Positions 6,918 through 32,778 of a DNA stretch of 35,971 bases are shown in pieces. Both the position numbers and the translations under genes were made by a program. The notes beneath the pieces are model-generated. The model was not told the DNA's origin and searched no databases. It worked only from the letters and a program-made list of their open reading frames with translations. Origin of the DNA: an uncultured Kordiimonadaceae bacterium. Lineage in GTDB: Bacteria > Pseudomonadota > Alphaproteobacteria > Sphingomonadales > Emcibacteraceae. The stretch spans positions 1-35,971 of the forward strand of contig CALDNY010000297.1 in assembly GCA_937914685.1 (NCBI GenBank), given 5' to 3'. Within the stretch, counting starts at the first letter, position 1, and each line of letters starts with the position of its first letter.

Positions 6918-9182
6918 CTAAAATTTAAACGTCCCTGTAAGACCGAATTGTTGCTTCCTTGGTAAGCTAACCGCAAAAGCTCTTCTAGAGAAAAAGCTGG
7001 GAACATCAACATAACGAAGGATCGACGTAGGTGTCTCATTGTCAAATGCGTTTTTAGCCCAGAGTGCTATACTATATTGCTCGTTTTCCACACCCACCCG
7101 AAAATTGGCAATACTGCGGCCACCTGTTCCAGCGAAGTTATAAACTTGAGCGTAACGGGTAGAGGAGTAAATAAAGTCACCTCTAGCAAAAAACTCTAGA
7201 TCCATGTTTGCAATTGGCGTTCTAAACTCACTACTCAAAGTTAATGTATGTTGCGGTGATTGTGGTGTAAAAGTACCCTTGACAATCCCATCAGCAAATC
7301 CAAAATTAAGCGCTTCCTGACGACTGTCCGCTGACAAATCAAAATTTTGAATTTCAGGATGAGTATAGGCATAAATAGCCTGCACTGAAAGTGCATCCGT
7401 TAGTTGGATACGTGTGTCAACTTCCATACCCCATGTTTCTGTTTTACCGACGTTATCAAGGTAGGAGAACGGCGAGCCTCCACCTTCAGGAATAAAATTC
7501 TGCGTAAGCTGCTGGTTAGTCCAATCAAGATAGTAAGCAGACATATTGAGAACCACCCGATCATCAAATAACGAAGATTTAAAACCAGCCTCATAACTCC
7601 AAATGTTTTCCTCATCAACAAGTTGTAACCCGGATGGAAGGGCTGAATTGGTGTTAAAATCACCCGGTTTGTTCCCTTTAGCGATTACGCCAAAAATCAT
7701 AAAATCATCGTTTATCTGATAATCTATAGTAATTTTTGGTGTCCATGATTTGTAAGTAGCCTTAAAGTTTTCCATACCACTTGTAATCGCTTCCAGCTTG
7801 TCTTCGGCATAGCGCATTTCTGCACTGATGCTAAGTTGATCGTTGATATCGTATTCTGCTTGGCCAAATACAGCGTAGTTGCTCACTTTACTACTGCCAT
7901 TAAACACGTGATCTGCGTCAGGCGCATCGCCGGAGCCGCGGGAATTAACCTCAACATTTTCTTTGTAATAATAACCGCCAACAATATAACGGAATGGATT
8001 TTCACCTGGCGATGTTAACCTCACTTCCTGCGAGAAATCGTCTCGCATGCTCATATCATCCGATATAAAACCCATTCGGAAAAAACCACGATTATCTTCA
8101 CCCGCATAGGTTTGGTCCTGAATAACCCGCCCGTTTTCATCAGAATAAGCGGTGATCGACGTCAATGTGTGCCCATTGTCAAAATCATAATTCATGGTAA
8201 GGCTAGTACGAATAGTTTCTTGACTTACGCCTGATCCCTCAGAATAATAATCGGTTTCCTGACGCGGTGCGTCCGCGGGAATTGAAACATCGCCGCAATA
8301 ATACTGACGGGCTACATCAAGGAAACAGTTGTTAGCTGACGCATCCTGCAATCCGATTGAATAAGCACCATCATCATCTTCAGAGTAGTTGACGCGGCCA
8401 ATAATTTCGAAATTTTCAGTTGGATAGAAAAGTAGTGCACCACTTACAGTGGTTGTTTGCTCCGCACCAATTTTCCCACCTTCAAGTCCCGGGAATGTGT
8501 TTTCGTAATCTCCACCGAAATCATAATATTTTCCGCCGATTTCAAAAAAGACCTTATCTTCAACCAATGGGCCACTTAAAAATCCAGATAATTCATAATT
8601 TTCGTGTTCAGCGGCAGTTCCAGTAAATCTGCCAGATAATTCATTTGTTGGTCTGCGCGTTACGTAATTGATCGCCCCGCCAAATGTCGCGCGTCCATAG
8701 AGCGCGCTTTGTGGGCCATTGATTACTTCTACGCGTTCAAGATTATCGAGCAGGATGGATTGACTTGAGCCACTAACATAAACGCCATCAACGAATACAG
8801 ATGCATTGGCACCGCCCTGAATACTGGACATACCACGAAAAACTGGACGATCACCCTGTCGGCCAAAGGCCGAAGCAAAACTGAAACCAGGAGAGAAATC
8901 AGCGATATCAACAATACTCTTAATATTCGCCCGCTCTAATCCTTCTGCAGAAAATGCAGTGATTGAAAGCGGCGTTTCTTGCAGCAATTCCTCACGTTTA
9001 CGTGCAGTAACCACCACAACATCTGTTGTATTGCGGTTATCTACCGCAATCTCGTTGTCCGCCTCTTGTGCTATGGTAGTGTTTATTTGCAATGATAACA
9101 GAACCGTTAATGCTGTTGATGCATATAAAGCTTTTTTACTCGTCTCTCTAGCCGTCATTTCTTCTCTCCGAATACAATTCAT
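6918..9182 (-). CDS. TonB-dependent outer-membrane receptor
   Basis: 754 aa; signal peptide, VVVTARKREELLQETPLSITAFSAEGLERANIKSIVDIADFSPG plug domain, RVEVINGPQSALYGRATFGGAINYVTRRP, beta-barrel ending in aromatic-terminal strand (GLTGTFKF). Confidence 0.95.
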   Translation of the reverse strand: MNCIRREEMTARETSKKALYASTALTVLLSLQINTTIAQEADNEIAVDNRNTTDVVVVTARKREELLQETPLSITAFSAEGLERANIKSIVDIADFSPGFSFASAFGRQGDRPVFRGMSSIQGGANASVFVDGVYVSGSSQSILLDNLERVEVINGPQSALYGRATFGGAINYVTRRPTNELSGRFTGTAAEHENYELSGFLSGPLVEDKVFFEIGGKYYDFGGDYENTFPGLEGGKIGAEQTTTVSGALLFYPTENFEIIGRVNYSEDDDGAYSIGLQDASANNCFLDVARQYYCGDVSIPADAPRQETDYYSEGSGVSQETIRTSLTMNYDFDNGHTLTSITAYSDENGRVIQDQTYAGEDNRGFFRMGFISDDMSMRDDFSQEVRLTSPGENPFRYIVGGYYYKENVEVNSRGSGDAPDADHVFNGSSKVSNYAVFGQAEYDINDQLSISAEMRYAEDKLEAITSGMENFKATYKSWTPKITIDYQINDDFMIFGVIAKGNKPGDFNTNSALPSGLQLVDEENIWSYEAGFKSSLFDDRVVLNMSAYYLDWTNQQLTQNFIPEGGGSPFSYLDNVGKTETWGMEVDTRIQLTDALSVQAIYAYTHPEIQNFDLSADSRQEALNFGFADGIVKGTFTPQSPQHTLTLSSEFRTPIANMDLEFFARGDFIYSSTRYAQVYNFAGTGGRSIANFRVGVENEQYSIALWAKNAFDNETPTSILRYVDVPSFFSRRAFAVSLPRKQQFGLTGTFKF

Positions 9183-25327: not shown

Positions 25328-26029
25328 CTACGAATTTGGCCCAAAGTGATCAGCAACTTCCGCCAACTTATCTTTATCTTTGAGGTGCACCACCCAATTT
25401 TGCGAAAGTTCAATTAACCCTTTTTTCTTTAGAAGCGAAAAGGCGCGGCTAACTGTTTCGACCGTTATGCCAAGATAGTCAGCAATATCGGCGCGTGTCA
25501 TCGGCAGGGTAAACTCGTCTGTATGGCCATCATATTTGACCTGGCGCTTATCAATATAAAGAAGAAAATAGGCTATTTTCTCTACCGCATTTTTGCGCCC
25601 AAGAACAAAAATTTGGTCCATGGTAGCGGCCAGTACTCGGGTGGCGATCTCATAAACGCGGTGTTCCAGTTCAGGATGTTTCACGTATAGCGCTTCGATA
25701 TCTCTGATGTGCCATTTGCAAGCCGTGACGTCAGTAAGTGCCCGGTCGCTGAAGCTGTAAGCAGGACCAGACGAAATGCCAATAAAGTCCCCAGGATATA
25801 CAAACGCGATTATTTGCCGCCGACCATCGCTGGCGAGCCGTTCTACCGCGGACACACCGGAAGACAAGTTATAGACATATTTGGTACTATCTTCTTCATG
25901 TAAAAGATAGCTGCCTTTTCCAACTTTTACAGAGTGCGCTAACGAGAATAGATCCGCGATGTTGTCATCGTTAAAAACAGAGCAAAGCTGACTACTCCTC
26001 GCCTTACAATTCTGACAATCAATACCCAA
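25328..26029 (-). CDS. Crp/Fnr family transcriptional regulator, FNR-like with N-terminal C-x2-C-x7-C
   Basis: 233 aa; MGIDCQNCKARSSQLCSVF, cNMP-like beta roll, central Cys (DVTACKWHIRDIE), FNR-type recognition helix MTRADIADYLGITVETVSRAFSLLKKKGLI. Confidence 0.92.
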   Translation of the reverse strand: MGIDCQNCKARSSQLCSVFNDDNIADLFSLAHSVKVGKGSYLLHEEDSTKYVYNLSSGVSAVERLASDGRRQIIAFVYPGDFIGISSGPAYSFSDRALTDVTACKWHIRDIEALYVKHPELEHRVYEIATRVLAATMDQIFVLGRKNAVEKIAYFLLYIDKRQVKYDGHTDEFTLPMTRADIADYLGITVETVSRAFSLLKKKGLIELSQNWVVHLKDKDKLAEVADHFGPNS

Positions 26030-26102: not shown

Positions 26103-26738
26103 CTACTTGTTGTTTTGAATAAAATTGATGATGTGCTCTTCTGAAACCACCTCAGCATATTTCGCCTGCAGATCAAACAGGTTTGCTTCATGGGGTCGCG
26201 GGTCACGGTCACCGACCGCATCACGCACCACAAGCGGCACAAAACCATACTGGCATGCGTCAACAGCAGTAGCGCGAACACAGCCAGAAGTCGATAGCCC
26301 CGTAATGATGAGGCCATCTATATTTTTGGCCGTCAAATATTCAGAAAGACCCGTATTAAAAAAGGCACTGGCATATTGTTTGGTAATAATATGTTCTTCC
26401 GAATGAGGCATTAGATTAGGTAGAAATTTGCCAAATCGACTACCTTCGTCAAAGAGTTTTAAGGCTTTTACTTTTTGATAGAAAACACCACCATCTTTTC
26501 CACCGTCATGATATTCAACATTGGTGAATATAACCGGAATTTCAACACCGCGTGCTACTTTTAAAATTCGTGTCGCGCTTTCAACAGCGTCCTCAACCCC
26601 GGCGTAGAGAGGAGACGCCGGGTCGAGGTATGCCGTGACAAAATCTACGAGGATCAGGGCGGGGCGCTGCACAGCAGGCATCGAACCACCGAAAAGCGCC
26701 CCTTTATAATCTTCGAGTAGATCATCATCGTTTGTCAT
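26103..26738 (-). CDS. Isochorismatase-family cysteine amidohydrolase (second copy)
   Basis: 211 aa; Asp (ALILVDFVTAYLD), Lys (HIITKQYASAFFNTGLSEYL), Cys (IITGLSTSGCVRATAVDA). Confidence 0.9.
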   Translation of the reverse strand: MTNDDDLLEDYKGALFGGSMPAVQRPALILVDFVTAYLDPASPLYAGVEDAVESATRILKVARGVEIPVIFTNVEYHDGGKDGGVFYQKVKALKLFDEGSRFGKFLPNLMPHSEEHIITKQYASAFFNTGLSEYLTAKNIDGLIITGLSTSGCVRATAVDACQYGFVPLVVRDAVGDRDPRPHEANLFDLQAKYAEVVSEEHIINFIQNNK

Positions 26739-26750
26739 AGCGCGGCCTTA

Positions 26751-27797
26751 TCAATCATGATCATGATCATGATGGTGGTGGTGGTGATGTCCATCGGCGT
26801 GACTATGGCCATGATCATCCGGGTGATGATCATGATGGTTGTGATGTTGCTCACCGTGATAATGATGAGGTTCATCTCGGTCCCCATGCAAATGACGCAC
26901 CTGTGTATCCATATGATAATCTTTATACTCAAAGTCCTGCGGACCATGTGGATGGTTATGACCGTGGGTCGCCGTCCATTTGTAAAGTTCAGGACGTTGA
27001 CGGTACATCATTGCCGCTGCGCGAAGCTTGTTTTCGTCCGGATTTGACCAAGGATTATAATGGAAATAGTTATGAAGTTTACTGTCCGTGCGTCCAAAAG
27101 CGATGGTTCCCAGTTTACAGCGGAACGAGCCATGGTTGATGTATGGCGGACGCCAGAAATAACCGCCGGTTGGCAAATTACCAAACTGCATCATCCAGCT
27201 CTCACCCCAAATATGATAGCTTTCTTCGGCGCAATCATGATAGGAAATATTATCCTGCATGAACTGTGGTGTCATACAGTAAAGAAATGACATCGCCTCT
27301 GTATATGGGTCATAGCGTAGAAGTTTAAGCAGGCAGCCCGCCGCAACAGATGGCGTAACCACGTTGCCTGGCGCCCAAGGCGCATCTTCGTAACCATTTA
27401 GGGAGACAAAAGCTTCTGTCATACAGTGAGGGTGGTTTTCATCAGATTCCACATAAGTTGGCTCACCATCATTATACATTACGAGTGCCTCGCAGCCATT
27501 TGGCACATCAATAGCACCAAGCGCCATACCAGCAGGTACGAACATATAATGTCCTTCAACACAATTTGTGTCGCCGATTTTCATTTCGCCTTTAAGGACA
27601 AATAATTCCATATCGGAATAACTCATTCCTGGCTTTCTCTTGTATCCACCGTCAAATTGCATTTTGAGGGTAGATGATCCAAGATCCTTATCAAGGGAGA
27701 GTACCTTATAGTGACTGCCACCAGCAAAGCCGGGCAGGCTAAAATTTTTGTAACTGTTATTCAGTTCGACGTAAGGCTCAATATGCGGACGCGCCAT
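26751..27797 (-). CDS. Cupin-domain protein with long C-terminal His/Asp-rich tail
   Basis: 348 aa; MELFVLKGEMKIGDTNCVEGHYMFVPAGMALGAI cupin-like motif; tail HGDRDEPHHYHGEQHHNHHDHHPDDHGHSHADGHHHHHHHDHDHD. Confidence 0.75.
   Translation of the reverse strand: MARPHIEPYVELNNSYKNFSLPGFAGGSHYKVLSLDKDLGSSTLKMQFDGGYKRKPGMSYSDMELFVLKGEMKIGDTNCVEGHYMFVPAGMALGAIDVPNGCEALVMYNDGEPTYVESDENHPHCMTEAFVSLNGYEDAPWAPGNVVTPSVAAGCLLKLLRYDPYTEAMSFLYCMTPQFMQDNISYHDCAEESYHIWGESWMMQFGNLPTGGYFWRPPYINHGSFRCKLGTIAFGRTDSKLHNYFHYNPWSNPDENKLRAAAMMYRQRPELYKWTATHGHNHPHGPQDFEYKDYHMDTQVRHLHGDRDEPHHYHGEQHHNHHDHHPDDHGHSHADGHHHHHHHDHDHD
26754..26880. repeat. Low-complexity CAT/GAT/GTG-rich segment encoding the His/Asp-rich tail
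   Basis: catgatcatgatcatgatggtggtggtggtgatg... visible in the plus strand; corresponds to poly-His/Asp codons on minus strand. Confidence 0.8.
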
Positions 27798-27829
27798 GAC
27801 CTAATCCTTTCTTATTTCTCTATTAATGA

Positions 27830-28102
27830 TTACCAAACAACTTTGTCTGCGTCGGGACGGTCCGGGCGTTCCGGAATGTCTTCTTTTTTGATCTGCACAC
27901 GCGTATCACCGTTCACGTTGAAGCCTTTATTTTGAATAATATCAAGGAACCGGGCGTACCAGCCATTGCGTTCTTCCTGAATGCCTTCCATTTCGGCGAC
28001 AATCTCGCCGTAACGTTCTTCTTGCTCAACAATTTCCTGGTCAATCCATTCGCTCACTTCCTTCGAGCGTTTTGGCTTTTCATCTTGCACTCTTTTCTTC
28101 AT
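27830..28102 (-). CDS. Small charged protein of unknown function (90 aa)
   Basis: ORF in tight operon context between cupin and CoA-transferase genes, RBS-like agagag upstream of ATG; highly charged, no recognised motif. Confidence 0.65.
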   Translation of the reverse strand: MKKRVQDEKPKRSKEVSEWIDQEIVEQEERYGEIVAEMEGIQEERNGWYARFLDIIQNKGFNVNGDTRVQIKKEDIPERPDRPDADKVVW

Positions 28103-28123
28103 TTGCTTCTCTCTCTTTCTTCG

Positions 28124-29323
28124 TTATTCCGGGCGCTTGGTCACGCCCTGCTCAAACATCTTAATTATCTGATCTTCTGAATATCCTACTTCACGCAGTA
28201 TTTCCTCACTCTGCTCACCAAGCCTTGGCGGCAGCCGCGTAATATCCGTTGGTGTCTTCGAAAAATTATAGGGCGATTTCGCCATGCGGATTTTACCCTC
28301 GGTGGGATGATCATGTATTTGCCAAAACCCGCTTTCCACAAGCTGAGGATCATTGATCAAGCCATCAAGGGTATTTACAATCATATGCGGCACATTTGTC
28401 GGCGCTAAAAGCTCAAGCCATTCAGCCGTAGTTTTCATTGAAAGTGCCTTACCGGTTTCCGCGTAGCTAACATCGATATTGGTAAGTCGGCTCTGCATAT
28501 CTTTAAACCTTGGATCGCTCAGCAAGTCCGGACGGCCCACGATCTCGCAAAATGTTCTCCAGTGGTTATCCCAGTATGGCAGCACCGCAACATAACCGTC
28601 TTTGGTTTTATAAGGGCGGCGATGTTCGCTCATCAGCCGCACATAGCCTGCTTTGCCGATCGGTGGCTCAAAGGTCTGACCCCATTGATGCTCGGCCATC
28701 ACGAAACTAACCATAGTTTCATACATGGGCACTTCAATTTCCTGGCCTTCGCCGTGACGTTCTTTATAAAAAAGCGCCGCCGTAACCGCATTGACCACCG
28801 CCATACCTGTTGTCTTATCGGCAATGATGGTTGGAAGATATCTTGGTTCTCCTTCCACCATGCTCATGAGCATGGCGATACCGGATCCCGCCTGAATACT
28901 GTCATCAAGCGCCCCCTTATCGCCGTACGGTCCTTTTTTACTGTAGCCATATGTGGCGCAATAAATAATTTCTGGATTAACCTCTTTCACCGCATCGTAA
29001 TCAAGGCCCAGTTTGACCATGGCTTGCGGGCGAAAATTATGGATCATCACGTCTGCACCAGCGGCTAACTTTAACGCGGCTTCTTGTCCTTCAGGGTTTT
29101 TAAGATCAAGAACGATGCTGCGCTTATTGCGGTTGCACGTCATGAACAATGCGCTCATATCGCTGTTATTTCGGTTGGGTCCCAAATTCCGATTGGTATC
29201 ACCGACCGGCGGCTCCACCTTAATAATATCCGCACCCATATCGCCGAGAATTTGGCAAGCCCACGGTCCCAGTACAACACTGGTAAATTCAACTATTTTT
29301 ATGCCGTTTAGTGGCCCGCTCAT
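28124..29323 (-). CDS. CaiB/BaiF family (class III) CoA-transferase
   Basis: 399 aa; LNGIKIVEFTSVVLGPWACQILGDMGADIIKVEPPVGDTNR, MIHNFRPQAMVKLGLDYDAVKEVNPEIIYCATYGYSKKGPYGDKGALDDSIQAGSGI. Confidence 0.94.
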   Translation of the reverse strand: MSGPLNGIKIVEFTSVVLGPWACQILGDMGADIIKVEPPVGDTNRNLGPNRNNSDMSALFMTCNRNKRSIVLDLKNPEGQEAALKLAAGADVMIHNFRPQAMVKLGLDYDAVKEVNPEIIYCATYGYSKKGPYGDKGALDDSIQAGSGIAMLMSMVEGEPRYLPTIIADKTTGMAVVNAVTAALFYKERHGEGQEIEVPMYETMVSFVMAEHQWGQTFEPPIGKAGYVRLMSEHRRPYKTKDGYVAVLPYWDNHWRTFCEIVGRPDLLSDPRFKDMQSRLTNIDVSYAETGKALSMKTTAEWLELLAPTNVPHMIVNTLDGLINDPQLVESGFWQIHDHPTEGKIRMAKSPYNFSKTPTDITRLPPRLGEQSEEILREVGYSEDQIIKMFEQGVTKRPE

Positions 29324-30217
29324 CTAAACATCCTCCGAAACGAGTTCGACGCCATGTTTTTCAAGCCCATAAAGCCTGATCACGTTATTTCGTAGGAATT
29401 TACGTTCAACAATTGGCTTAAGACCACGTTCTTTAATTTCACCAACCGTGCGGCCAAAGCGAAGAACCGGAAAATCGGTGCCAAAAATTACTTTATTTTG
29501 CCCGTAAGAATTCAGGTATTTCCACACGCTCTCCGGCCAGTATTTCGGACTATGGGCATCGGTGCAGATATATACATTTTCATGTTTCCAGGCCATGGCA
29601 ATCATTTCATCATGCCAGGGAATGCCAACATGAGAGCCGATCAGTTTAAGTTCCGGCAGATCACAGGCAATGTCATCAAGATATATGGGCCGCCCTACAG
29701 AGCGGCAGCGATTATCTTTGGCATAGATCAGCGACTGGCCTACTTGCATTTGGATCGGGATGTCCAGCTCAATACATTTGGCATAGAACGGATAATATTT
29801 TGCATGATTTGGCGCGAGTTCAAACCAGTGGGGATAAAGATGAGCACCGATGAAGCCTTTATTTTTAACATCATCCTCAAGCGCACGAACGCCGTCCATT
29901 CCCTGGTAAGGATCAATGCCTACAAGACCAAAGAAACGTTTTGGGTATTTTGCAACAGCCTCTGCGACTACTTCGGGCGGCATGTGATAGCAGCCCGGAA
30001 GGCCGGGACGTCCGGTTTTCGCAGCGATCAAAAACGCATATTCAATACCCGCCTCATCCATCTGATCTATCATTACTTCCAGCGACGTTCCTGCGGAACT
30101 ATGCTCGCCTTTTATTTTGCCAACAAAAAAATCATCGGTCCAGTTGGGGCGATGAGAAAGCGCCTCCTCCGTCCAGATATTAACCACTGCATCAATTGCT
30201 TTGAAATCCTGCGCCAT
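29324..30217 (-). CDS. Amidohydrolase-family (ACMSD-like, amidohydrolase_2 type) protein
   Basis: 297 aa; IDQMDEAGIEYAFLI, YPKRFFGLVGIDPYQGMDGVRALE, FIGAHLYPHWFELAPN, LKLIGSHVGIPWHDEMIAMAWKHENVYICTDAHSPKYWP, KVIFGTDFPV. Confidence 0.88.
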   Translation of the reverse strand: MAQDFKAIDAVVNIWTEEALSHRPNWTDDFFVGKIKGEHSSAGTSLEVMIDQMDEAGIEYAFLIAAKTGRPGLPGCYHMPPEVVAEAVAKYPKRFFGLVGIDPYQGMDGVRALEDDVKNKGFIGAHLYPHWFELAPNHAKYYPFYAKCIELDIPIQMQVGQSLIYAKDNRCRSVGRPIYLDDIACDLPELKLIGSHVGIPWHDEMIAMAWKHENVYICTDAHSPKYWPESVWKYLNSYGQNKVIFGTDFPVLRFGRTVGEIKERGLKPIVERKFLRNNVIRLYGLEKHGVELVSEDV

Positions 30218-30226
30218 TGTATCCTC

Positions 30227-30952
30227 CTACAAACCAAACGCTAACATACCAACAGCACAAAGACTTATGGTACCGCCAGCAAAGGCGTGTGAATATTTTT
30301 GAAGGCCGTTTGTGGAAACGGATTTAATCCCCCAAGATGAAAGCATCACCACGCTCAGCATTGTTGTGATAGTGACCGCCGTAAATATGCCAACAGTCAT
30401 CGCCACACCCATATAATTTCCTGCGGCCGCAGGTACCATCATCAACGGGATGAGTGGCTCGCAAGGGCCAAGTATGAAAATAATAAACAATGCCCAGGGA
30501 GCAAAAATTTTCATGCTGAATTTCTGAGCCGCCTTTTCCGCATGCACGTGAGCGTGATCACTTTGATGATTATGGTTATGAGTGTGACGCACTCCATCGG
30601 CATGGGTATGCCAATGGTTGTGAGATTTGGCGTTGAAGGATTTGCGAATTCCCCACGCGGCATATAAAAAACCAAAACAAAGAAGTGACCATGCAGCGAC
30701 ATCACCGCGAACACTTTCAATATTTAAAAGCCTCGTTACATATCCGCTGGCATATACGCCAATAAAACCAAGTAAAATTGAACCAATTGAATGACCAACG
30801 CCGCACATGAGAGTTATTAATCCCGTTTTTGGAAGGCTCCAGCCACGGGCCTTACCGACGGCAACAAACGGCAAATAATGATCTGGACCGAGCAATGTAT
30901 GGACAAACGCTATTGATGCGGCACCCCATAATAATACGAGTTCATTTTCCAT
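30227..30952 (-). CDS. NicO/HoxN/UreH-type metal (Ni/Co?) transporter with His-rich loop
   Basis: 241 aa membrane protein; LLGPDHYLPFVAVGKARGWSLPKTGLITLMCGVGHSIGSILLG (H-x4-D-like and GxGHSxGS), loop SHNHWHTHADGVRHTHNHNHQSDHAHVHAEK. Confidence 0.85.
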   Translation of the reverse strand: MENELVLLWGAASIAFVHTLLGPDHYLPFVAVGKARGWSLPKTGLITLMCGVGHSIGSILLGFIGVYASGYVTRLLNIESVRGDVAAWSLLCFGFLYAAWGIRKSFNAKSHNHWHTHADGVRHTHNHNHQSDHAHVHAEKAAQKFSMKIFAPWALFIIFILGPCEPLIPLMMVPAAAGNYMGVAMTVGIFTAVTITTMLSVVMLSSWGIKSVSTNGLQKYSHAFAGGTISLCAVGMLAFGL

Positions 30953-31046: not shown

Positions 31047-32483
31047 TCATGGGAAATTAGCGTTCTTTTCGTCAAATGCTTCAATGGGAAATGCGTCAGC
31101 GGTATTAGTCATAATAGCTTTTTTACGAAAAAATCGGTGATAGCCCGCTGGCCCCATGCGCGATTCTCCCATACCGGAACATTTGAACGAATTTTTCTCG
31201 GCTTCGTGCATAAAGCCCGTGAGGCTGCCTTCATTGATGCTGATCCCCCCCGCGTCTATTTTCATAGCGATCTTGTTAGCATGCGCCAAATCTGTCGAAT
31301 AAACGGAACCACTCAGTCCGTAAATAGTATCATTGGCAAGTCGTAATGCCTCCTCGTCATCCGCAAACGACATAATTGGCATTATCGGACCAAAGGTTTC
31401 GTCCTTCATAATAGTCATATCATGGTTGACTTCAGTCATAACCGTCGGGCGGCACCACAGGCCGCCGCCGTGATGCTCGATCTCTCCGCCGGTGTGGACG
31501 GTGGCACCTTTCGCCACCGCATCTGCAAGCTGGGATTTAATAATTTTTGCCTGTTTTTCAAAAATGATCGGACCGATATGGCCACTCTCAAGATCAGGAT
31601 AATTAAGTTTAACGCTCTTTGCTTTTGCAATTATTTTTTCAACAAATTCACCGTATAAGCTTTTATGAACATAAATGCGCTCTACCGACTGGCAAGCATG
31701 GCCCGTATTGACAATCGACGCTCTCAGCAGCGATGTCGCAGCGCGCTCCACATCTGCATCCTCCAACACTATCGCCGGATCTTTTCCACCAAGTTCAAGG
31801 ATTGATGGGATAAAATTACGCGCCGCAGCCTCTGCTACCTTGCGGCCGGTGACAACGCTGCCGGTAAAACAAACCATATCCACATGATCGATGAGCGCAG
31901 CGCCGGTGCTGCCGTCGCCATCAACTATATGAAGGATGTCTTTAAGCTCTTCGACTTCTGAAATTGCTTTTCTCATAGGCTGCGCAAATCGAGGCGTTAC
32001 CTCACTTGGCTTGATGATCGCCGTGCCGCCTGAGAGCATAGCTGGAAGCGCATCAATCATCGAAAGCGTCATGGGGAAATTCCAGGGACTGATCGCCCCC
32101 ACTACCGCATAGGGTTCTTTCTCACTTCGATATTCGATAAATGGAAGCGCACCGGAATTCTTGGTCTCTGGCGCTTTATCAGCCCGCGCCACTGCAATCC
32201 ACCGATCAATGGCATTTGCGATACCGTCCACTTCTGCCACAGAAATATAGAGTCTACCCGTATCTGCTGTCAGCGCATTGATAAGTTCTGTACGGTGATT
32301 AGCAATTGATGATTTGAGTTTTTCCAAAATTGATATACGATACGCCAAGTCCTGCTCACGCCAGTGTATCTGCGCCGTTCTCATGCGCTGCGTCAGCGCT
32401 GCAATTTCTTCGGCTGTTGTTACGACAATTTCATAGTCATTCGCGCCAGTGCGTGGATTTCGAACAGAAAGTTTATTACTCAT
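31047..32483 (-). CDS. NAD(P)-dependent aldehyde dehydrogenase family protein
   Basis: Track ORF 31047..32696; start re-assigned to ATG at 32483 (MSNKLSVRNPRTGANDYEIVV), because the upstream extension overlaps the DUF1330 gene; GAISPWNFPMTLSMIDALPAMLSGGTAIIKPSEVTP, LELGGKDPAIVL, NTGHACQSVERIYV catalytic Cys. Confidence 0.93.
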   Translation of the reverse strand: MSNKLSVRNPRTGANDYEIVVTTAEEIAALTQRMRTAQIHWREQDLAYRISILEKLKSSIANHRTELINALTADTGRLYISVAEVDGIANAIDRWIAVARADKAPETKNSGALPFIEYRSEKEPYAVVGAISPWNFPMTLSMIDALPAMLSGGTAIIKPSEVTPRFAQPMRKAISEVEELKDILHIVDGDGSTGAALIDHVDMVCFTGSVVTGRKVAEAAARNFIPSILELGGKDPAIVLEDADVERAATSLLRASIVNTGHACQSVERIYVHKSLYGEFVEKIIAKAKSVKLNYPDLESGHIGPIIFEKQAKIIKSQLADAVAKGATVHTGGEIEHHGGGLWCRPTVMTEVNHDMTIMKDETFGPIMPIMSFADDEEALRLANDTIYGLSGSVYSTDLAHANKIAMKIDAGGISINEGSLTGFMHEAEKNSFKCSGMGESRMGPAGYHRFFRKKAIMTNTADAFPIEAFDEKNANFP

Positions 32484-32484
32484 T

Positions 32485-32778
32485 TTATGCCCCGTCCAGT
32501 AGCCGCACCGTGACCCTCGCTTTTCCGAGGCGTAATTTTTTAACCTCAGCATACTCTGGTGAGTTCCAGAATTCTTGGGCCGCTTCCATGGAAGGCCATT
32601 TGGAAATAACGACTTTTTCTTCTTCCGGCCATTCGCCTTCCAAGGTAACCGCGCCTTGGGCACCGCGAACAATATATTCACCGCCGAACTGCCCAATCAG
32701 ACTCGCTGCCGCGATCGCATAATCGCGAAATCCCTTTGGATCATCTAATTCTGCAATGATAAGCATATAAGCTGACAT
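32485..32778 (-). CDS. DUF1330 family protein (dimeric alpha-beta barrel-like)
   Basis: Track ORF 32485..32790; start probably at internal ATG (MSAYMLIIAELDDPKGFRDYAIAAASLIGQFGGEYIVRGA ... VVISKWPSMEAAQEFWNSPEYAEVKKLR). Confidence 0.85.
   Translation of the reverse strand: MSAYMLIIAELDDPKGFRDYAIAAASLIGQFGGEYIVRGAQGAVTLEGEWPEEEKVVISKWPSMEAAQEFWNSPEYAEVKKLRLGKARVTVRLLDGA

Follow-up and report, generated by a model that had tools for sequence, protein, structure and literature searches.

A cupin with a lineage-variable His-rich tail and a putative divalent-metal transporter in one predicted catabolic operon of an uncultured Kordiimonadaceae bacterium

A degradation gene cluster of an uncultured Kordiimonadaceae bacterium encodes, in a single predicted operon, a cupin that ends in a His/Asp-rich tail and a membrane protein that carries a His-rich loop; among relatives of the cupin the tail comes and goes, whereas the residues of its putative metal site are invariant. 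Our preferred reading, which is tentative and to which we give somewhat less than an even chance, is that the cupin is catabolic and metal-dependent and has an optional metal-buffering His tail, and that in one lineage its operon includes a metal transporter. Tail and transporter vary separately among the genomes compared, which argues for two separable aids to metal supply.

The window (the whole stretch of DNA that was analysed, 35,971 nucleotides from a host that we take to be a marine bacterium) is a catabolic island. Its ORF translations include a TRAP transporter, hydantoinase-like A/B subunits and LeuC/D-like proteins, and family matches add two allantoinase-like deacetylases, FAD enzymes, a nitrilase-type hydrolase and several VOC proteins. 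Within it, the co-directional run from 30952 to 26103 that was originally described comprises six minus-strand genes, in the order membrane protein, Amidohydro_2 enzyme, CaiB-type CoA-transferase, 90-aa protein, cupin and isochorismatase-fold hydrolase, followed by an FNR-like regulator (Table 1). As the gaps between the six genes range from immediate adjacency to 32 bp, it is plausible from their layout that they form one operon, in which the transporter gene lies four genes from the cupin gene. The aldehyde dehydrogenase (ALDH) gene, which ends (31047) 94 bp upstream of the transporter gene, may be a further member of the run. The regulator is retained with the module in most Emcibacterales clusters, which suggests oxygen-responsive control. 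A count of FNR boxes was uninformative (40 seen versus 32 expected by chance), and no metal riboswitch or other known RNA was found in the clusters.

Table 1. Coordinates of the predicted operon, its flanking genes and the sequence features discussed in the text (positions in the window).
Feature	Position	Strand	Remarks
FNR/FnrL-like regulator, N-terminal Cys motif CQNCKARSSQLC	25328-26029	-	adjoins module in most Emcibacterales clusters
Isochorismatase-fold hydrolase	26103-26738	-	nearest solved relatives N-carbamoylsarcosine amidohydrolase, 3ot4
Cupin ORF, 348 aa	26751-27797	-	PF14499 E=1.4e-19, Cupin_7 E=2.8e-7
Hypervariable His/Asp-rich tail, cupin residues 306-348	26754-26882	-	21 His in 43 residues
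HNHPHG motif of C-terminal extension, cupin residues 280-285	26943-26960	-	HNHPH in at least 90% of 32 homologues
H222, His of cupin motif 2	27132-27134	-	invariant in 32 homologues
H187...E191, canonical second His and Glu of cupin motif 1, C-terminal barrel	27225-27239	-	invariant in 32 homologues
90-aa protein	27830-28102	-	no known family, no Pfam match; next to cupin in nearly all loci
CaiB-type (family III) CoA-transferase	28124-29323	-	PF02515 E=5e-111
Amidohydro_2 enzyme	29324-30217	-	PF04909 E=2e-39
Putative divalent-metal transporter, six-helix, LysE-clan-like, 241 aa	30227-30952	-	six hydrophobic segments; weak family matches
His-rich loop of transporter, helices 3-4, residues 110-140	30533-30625	-	11 His
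HTLLGPDH signature of transporter, residues 18-25	30878-30901	-	H18, G22, P23, D24 and H25 invariant in 13 homologues
Aldehyde dehydrogenase, true start uncertain	31047-32696	-	PF00171 E=7e-114

The cupin belongs to the DUF4437 family, as it scores 70.7 bits against the family model (PF14499; cut-off 24), and all 32 homologues match both PF14499 and Cupin_7 (E up to 0.001). The predicted model of its core resembles structure 2qdr, a putative dioxygenase, with a TM-score (target) of 0.76. When the cupin motifs are defined as in PMC4416304, the likely metal ligands are confined to the C-terminal barrel, and the N-terminal barrel has none. Ser185 takes the place of the first His of motif 1, leaving three of the four canonical ligands, H187, E191 and H222, which are unchanged in the homologues down to 45% identity, whether these are tailed or tailless; E192 and H195 are invariant as well. 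The equivalent of H222 is not conserved in the distant DUF4437 protein 2qdr. The cupin is probably an oxygenase that depends on metal, or an enzyme related to one.

In nearly all loci with enough sequence, from both Alpha- and Gammaproteobacteria, the gene directly upstream of the cupin gene encodes the 90-aa protein (the exceptions are L025 and L026). Judged by gene neighborhood, the constant partner of the cupin is this small protein and not the transporter, and it has the appearance of a small subunit or an obligate partner. Gammaproteobacterial loci combine the pair with genes for an isochorismatase-fold hydrolase and a PuuE-like deacetylase, and a Rieske oxygenase is often encoded close by. 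The 90-aa protein and the cupin represent an undescribed enzyme module that is common to alpha- and gammaproteobacterial degradation clusters.

The original prediction drew attention to the end of the cupin, some 70 residues packed with His and Asp, and the composition bears this out: the last 70 residues contain 27 His and 12 Asp, against a background of 1.9% His in the other proteins of the window, whose richest 70-aa stretch has 6; a count this high in 70 residues would arise by chance with a probability below 1e-27. The tail consists of two parts, a conserved extension (residues ~269-305) and a hypervariable His/Asp run (residues ~306-348), and the model predicts residues 309-348 to be disordered (pLDDT <50). 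It is not one expanded triplet, because its His codons (19 CAT, 9 CAC) show the same mix as those of the cupin core (7 and 3); with CAT and CAC mixed, birth by single-triplet slippage is not favored. The CAT/CAC repeats account for the antisense ORF that overlaps the tail on the plus strand (26757-27047).

The membrane protein has, as was also pointed out originally, its own His-rich loop, which accommodates 11 of its 15 His residues. None of the 11 varies across 13 homologues, among them that of G737, a genome that lacks the cupin, and a positive-inside charge count indicates that the loop is probably cytoplasmic. Based on its sequence the protein is a putative divalent-metal transporter; the narrower label first given to it, NicO-type, is weakly backed. 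At the curated cut-off the NicO/NiCoT model (PF03824) matched neither the window protein nor the 13 homologues, the model had no match in G000, and the HupE Pfam model matched neither the window protein nor its homologues up to E=0.1. The NiCoT signatures, (R/K)HAXDADH(I/L) and LGX(D/E)T(A/S)(T/S)E in TM5 (PMC7689651), are absent, as the window protein reads HTLLGPDHY and LGPCEPLIPL at these sites and has only the GHS of TM3 in common. The HTLLGPDH sequence is closer to HPXXGXDH, the first-helix signature of HupE/UreJ (PMC7689651), from which it differs by a P to T replacement, than to the HAXDADH of NiCoT. The best sequence hint is a DsbD_2 match in two homologues (2.5e-5), and an RcnA-type efflux model (NCBIfam, PRK10019) weakly matches seven of the 13 homologues (best E=3.2e-4) and not the window protein. 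Comparable His loops occur in transporters of hyp operons, and an hhalign comparison with the UreH-like proteins among hyp genes (L063) gave a probability of 97% with the loop and 5%, still collinear, once the loop was removed; since the score depends on the loop, we rejected it as proof of profile homology. RcnA-type exporters likewise bear His-rich loops (PMC11247825), so the loop does not fix the direction of transport. The predicted structure of the transporter is poor (pLDDT 52, pTM 0.39).

Cupin and transporter are tightly linked in Emcibacterales. Among 61 relatives, each is present in 14 genomes and both in 13 (Fisher p ~3e-11, kinship uncorrected); within the window's own genus the distribution is patchy, three genomes having both and 11 having neither close orthologue. 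The transporter lies beside the cupin module in Emcibacterales and in one Cellvibrionales genome. Decay is suggested in another member of the window's genus, G695, where transporter-matching fragments with stops (L130, ~7660-7830) lie beside an intact GntR regulator that is 75% identical to the window's, and where the cluster seems to have decayed. In the host genome (96.7% complete), searches for NiFe hydrogenase, CobN and Ni-SOD detected none, a urease search returned only a sub-cut-off match of 37 residues that is not credible, and a search for HypB/UreG gave no strong match and weak cobW matches. The original prediction had proposed a dedicated metal supply for the cupin. The linkage, 13 of 14 in each direction, and a host without the Ni/Co enzymes tested favor a metal supply, whereas the word dedicated does not hold: of 33 cupin genomes, 10 have the transporter (always as a single copy), and strongly His-tailed cupins occur in genomes without it (L007, L019, L020, L029, L031-L034 and L036) that span Gammaproteobacteria and others. 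Three of these loci (L033, L034 and L036) retain the Amidohydro_2-CaiB-90aa-cupin order with the transporter absent.

The converse case, a transporter without the cupin, is found in G737 and bears on an alternative that we consider rather unlikely, namely that the transporter serves the island as a whole, for another metal enzyme (e.g. of the VOC/glyoxalase type) or for the export of surplus metal, and is adjacent to the cupin module merely because they share an operon. The locus in G737 is a recognizable version of the same catabolic island, in which the five genes from Amidohydro_2 to isochorismatase are missing, the transporter gene lies between those of the ALDH and the FNR-like regulator, and VOC proteins (73% and 52% identity) are retained; the weak matches of seven homologues to the RcnA-type model would fit export. 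Against this, the cupin module is present in 13 of the 14 relatives with the transporter, and related islands with VOC genes exist that have no transporter (L031, L036).

We regard as improbable the original proposal in its full form, in which a cupin dependent on Ni or Co works as one unit with its dedicated importer and built-in reservoir. It had itself named independent variation of tail and transporter among homologues as evidence against it, and such variation is what we found: the two do not always occur together among the relatives compared, and tails come and go over invariant active-site residues. Membership of the transporter in NicO/NiCoT is, moreover, not established. The proposal draws support from the tight linkage in Emcibacterales, from a host in which no other recognized Ni/Co customer was found among those searched, and from the cupin QueD, for which Ni is the likely physiological metal (PMC4416304). 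The tails themselves add a weak hint: when any NicO-type gene is counted, such genes are present in 0 of 11 genomes with a complete non-His tail, every one of which is without both transporter types, versus 11 of 19 His-tailed genomes (p=0.0016); this association is post hoc and uncorrected for kinship. The other NicO-type transporters in these genomes are located in a hyp operon (G030) or a B12 operon (G006), or stand alone as UreH-like genes, and because G006 also has a window-type transporter, the jobs of the two appear to differ.

To survey the tail we compared 37 loci from public genomes. Emcibacterales, Porticoccaceae-like genomes and some of the Gammaproteobacteria have a His-rich variable part. 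In L010, L013 and L018 this part is rich in Lys instead, in L014, L015, L019 and L020 it is mixed, with a block of His ahead of a Lys/Arg end, in L024, L028, L030 and L035 it is missing, and the second cupin copies of L016 and L017 have a short one. A tree of cupin cores requires seven changes of the His-rich state, at least five of them by supported branches. Because relatives have Lys-rich tails or none, the tail is dispensable for catalysis, and the occurrence of the same core with a His-rich, Lys-rich or absent tail in close relatives provides a natural experiment on tail function. The window cupin and that of L001 share 289 of 306 residues in core and constant extension (123 synonymous codon changes versus 17 replacements) and 19 of 42 in the variable tail, which is His-rich in both. 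That composition is kept though the sequence turns over fits a metal-buffer role and is no proof of one. It is quite improbable that the tail has no metal role and is simply a disordered, hydrophilic, fast-drifting segment with no constraint on its composition (His, Lys or none), as its predicted disorder and the Lys-rich or short tails of close relatives might suggest, since His composition survives strong sequence turnover in Emcibacterales, the separate His block and Lys/Arg end of the gammaproteobacterial mixed tails suggest separate selection, and UreE and SlyD have comparable His-rich tails that bind metal (PMC7055735). Disorder plus charge could be the common denominator of the tails.

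Several further observations concern tails and cupin copies. The PuuE-like protein neighboring the cupin in L018 also has a Lys-rich N-terminal extension. An HxHWHxH motif is found both in the transporter loop (window, L001, L002 and L027) and in the cupin tails of L027, L029 and L036, possibly as convergent metal-binding motifs. Second cupin genes are present in tandem in L016, L017, L019, L020 and L022, often as one long-tailed and one short-tailed copy, and L014 has a partial second copy. Two genomes of one alphaproteobacterial family (G455 and G570) each have at least eight distant DUF4437 cupins, which in the loci read (L073, L074, L082, L083 and others) are without a tail or 90-aa partner.

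We return to our preferred reading, a metal-dependent cupin with an optional buffering tail. The cupin would be a catabolic enzyme, probably an oxygenase, that holds its metal in the C-terminal barrel through H187, E191 and H222 and cooperates with the 90-aa protein of the adjoining upstream gene. The tail of the cupin, disordered by prediction, may serve as an optional reservoir that binds divalent metal with low affinity and enriches it locally for this site, a role modeled on proposals for Ni chaperones, whose His tails are removable. The membrane protein with the His loop would belong to the wider catabolic island and transport divalent metal, more likely into the cell. For the metal of the cupin, Ni or Co is plausible, and Fe or Mn is possible. 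In favor of this reading we count the co-occurrence and its patchiness within one genus, the host's apparent freedom from the three Ni/Co enzymes named above, the invariance of the putative ligands and of the transporter loop, the conserved His composition, the at least 16 His in each of the seven complete tails from the transporter-bearing genomes surveyed, and the additional NicO-type transporter of G006; against it count the His tails without a transporter, the Lys-rich or absent tails, G737, the weak family assignment, the His-looped RcnA exporters and the missing riboswitch. If the tail binds metal, a catabolic enzyme can carry its own metal buffer. A bolder version, which we think has a small chance of being correct, is a naturally Ni/Co-dependent ring-cleaving or related cupin whose tail is its metal store and which, in Emcibacterales, is transcribed together with an importer of a new family; if true, a metal supply line would be built into a degradation operon.

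Our literature search found no paper on DUF4437, no title or abstract describing a His-tailed catabolic cupin, and no paper on the set of cupin, His-rich protein and nickel transporter or on a cupin/isochorismatase/deacetylase cluster. His-rich tails are known from metal chaperones, and HypB also has His-rich stretches. The closest precedent for the cupin tail is, by analogy, that of UreE, which is dispensable for urease maturation and variable between lineages (PMC7055735). Like the Ni chaperones K. aerogenes UreE and H. pylori SlyD, the window cupin has a His-dense extension outside the folded core that varies among orthologues; unlike them, it is a catabolic cupin, with genes for neither a GTPase nor a maturation partner in its neighborhood. 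It shares a two-barrel fold and a family match with the DUF4437/ChrR-like cupins, including 2qdr, whereas its subfamily adds the HNHPHG extension and the 90-aa partner. A cupin metal site, putative in the window protein, is also a feature of the Ni-quercetinase QueD and other metal-promiscuous cupin dioxygenases, in which the native divalent metal can be other than Fe (PMC4416304); however, QueD uses 3His/1Glu, whereas the window cupin, as read from its sequence, would use 2His/1Glu. Finally, the transporter resembles HupE/UreJ, UreH, NiCoT and RcnA in its six predicted helices and RcnA and the hyp-operon UreH-like proteins in its His-rich loop, and its HxxxGxDH signature is close to the HPXXGXDH of HupE, yet it differs from these families in matching neither the NicO nor the HupE model and in lacking the NiCoT signatures.
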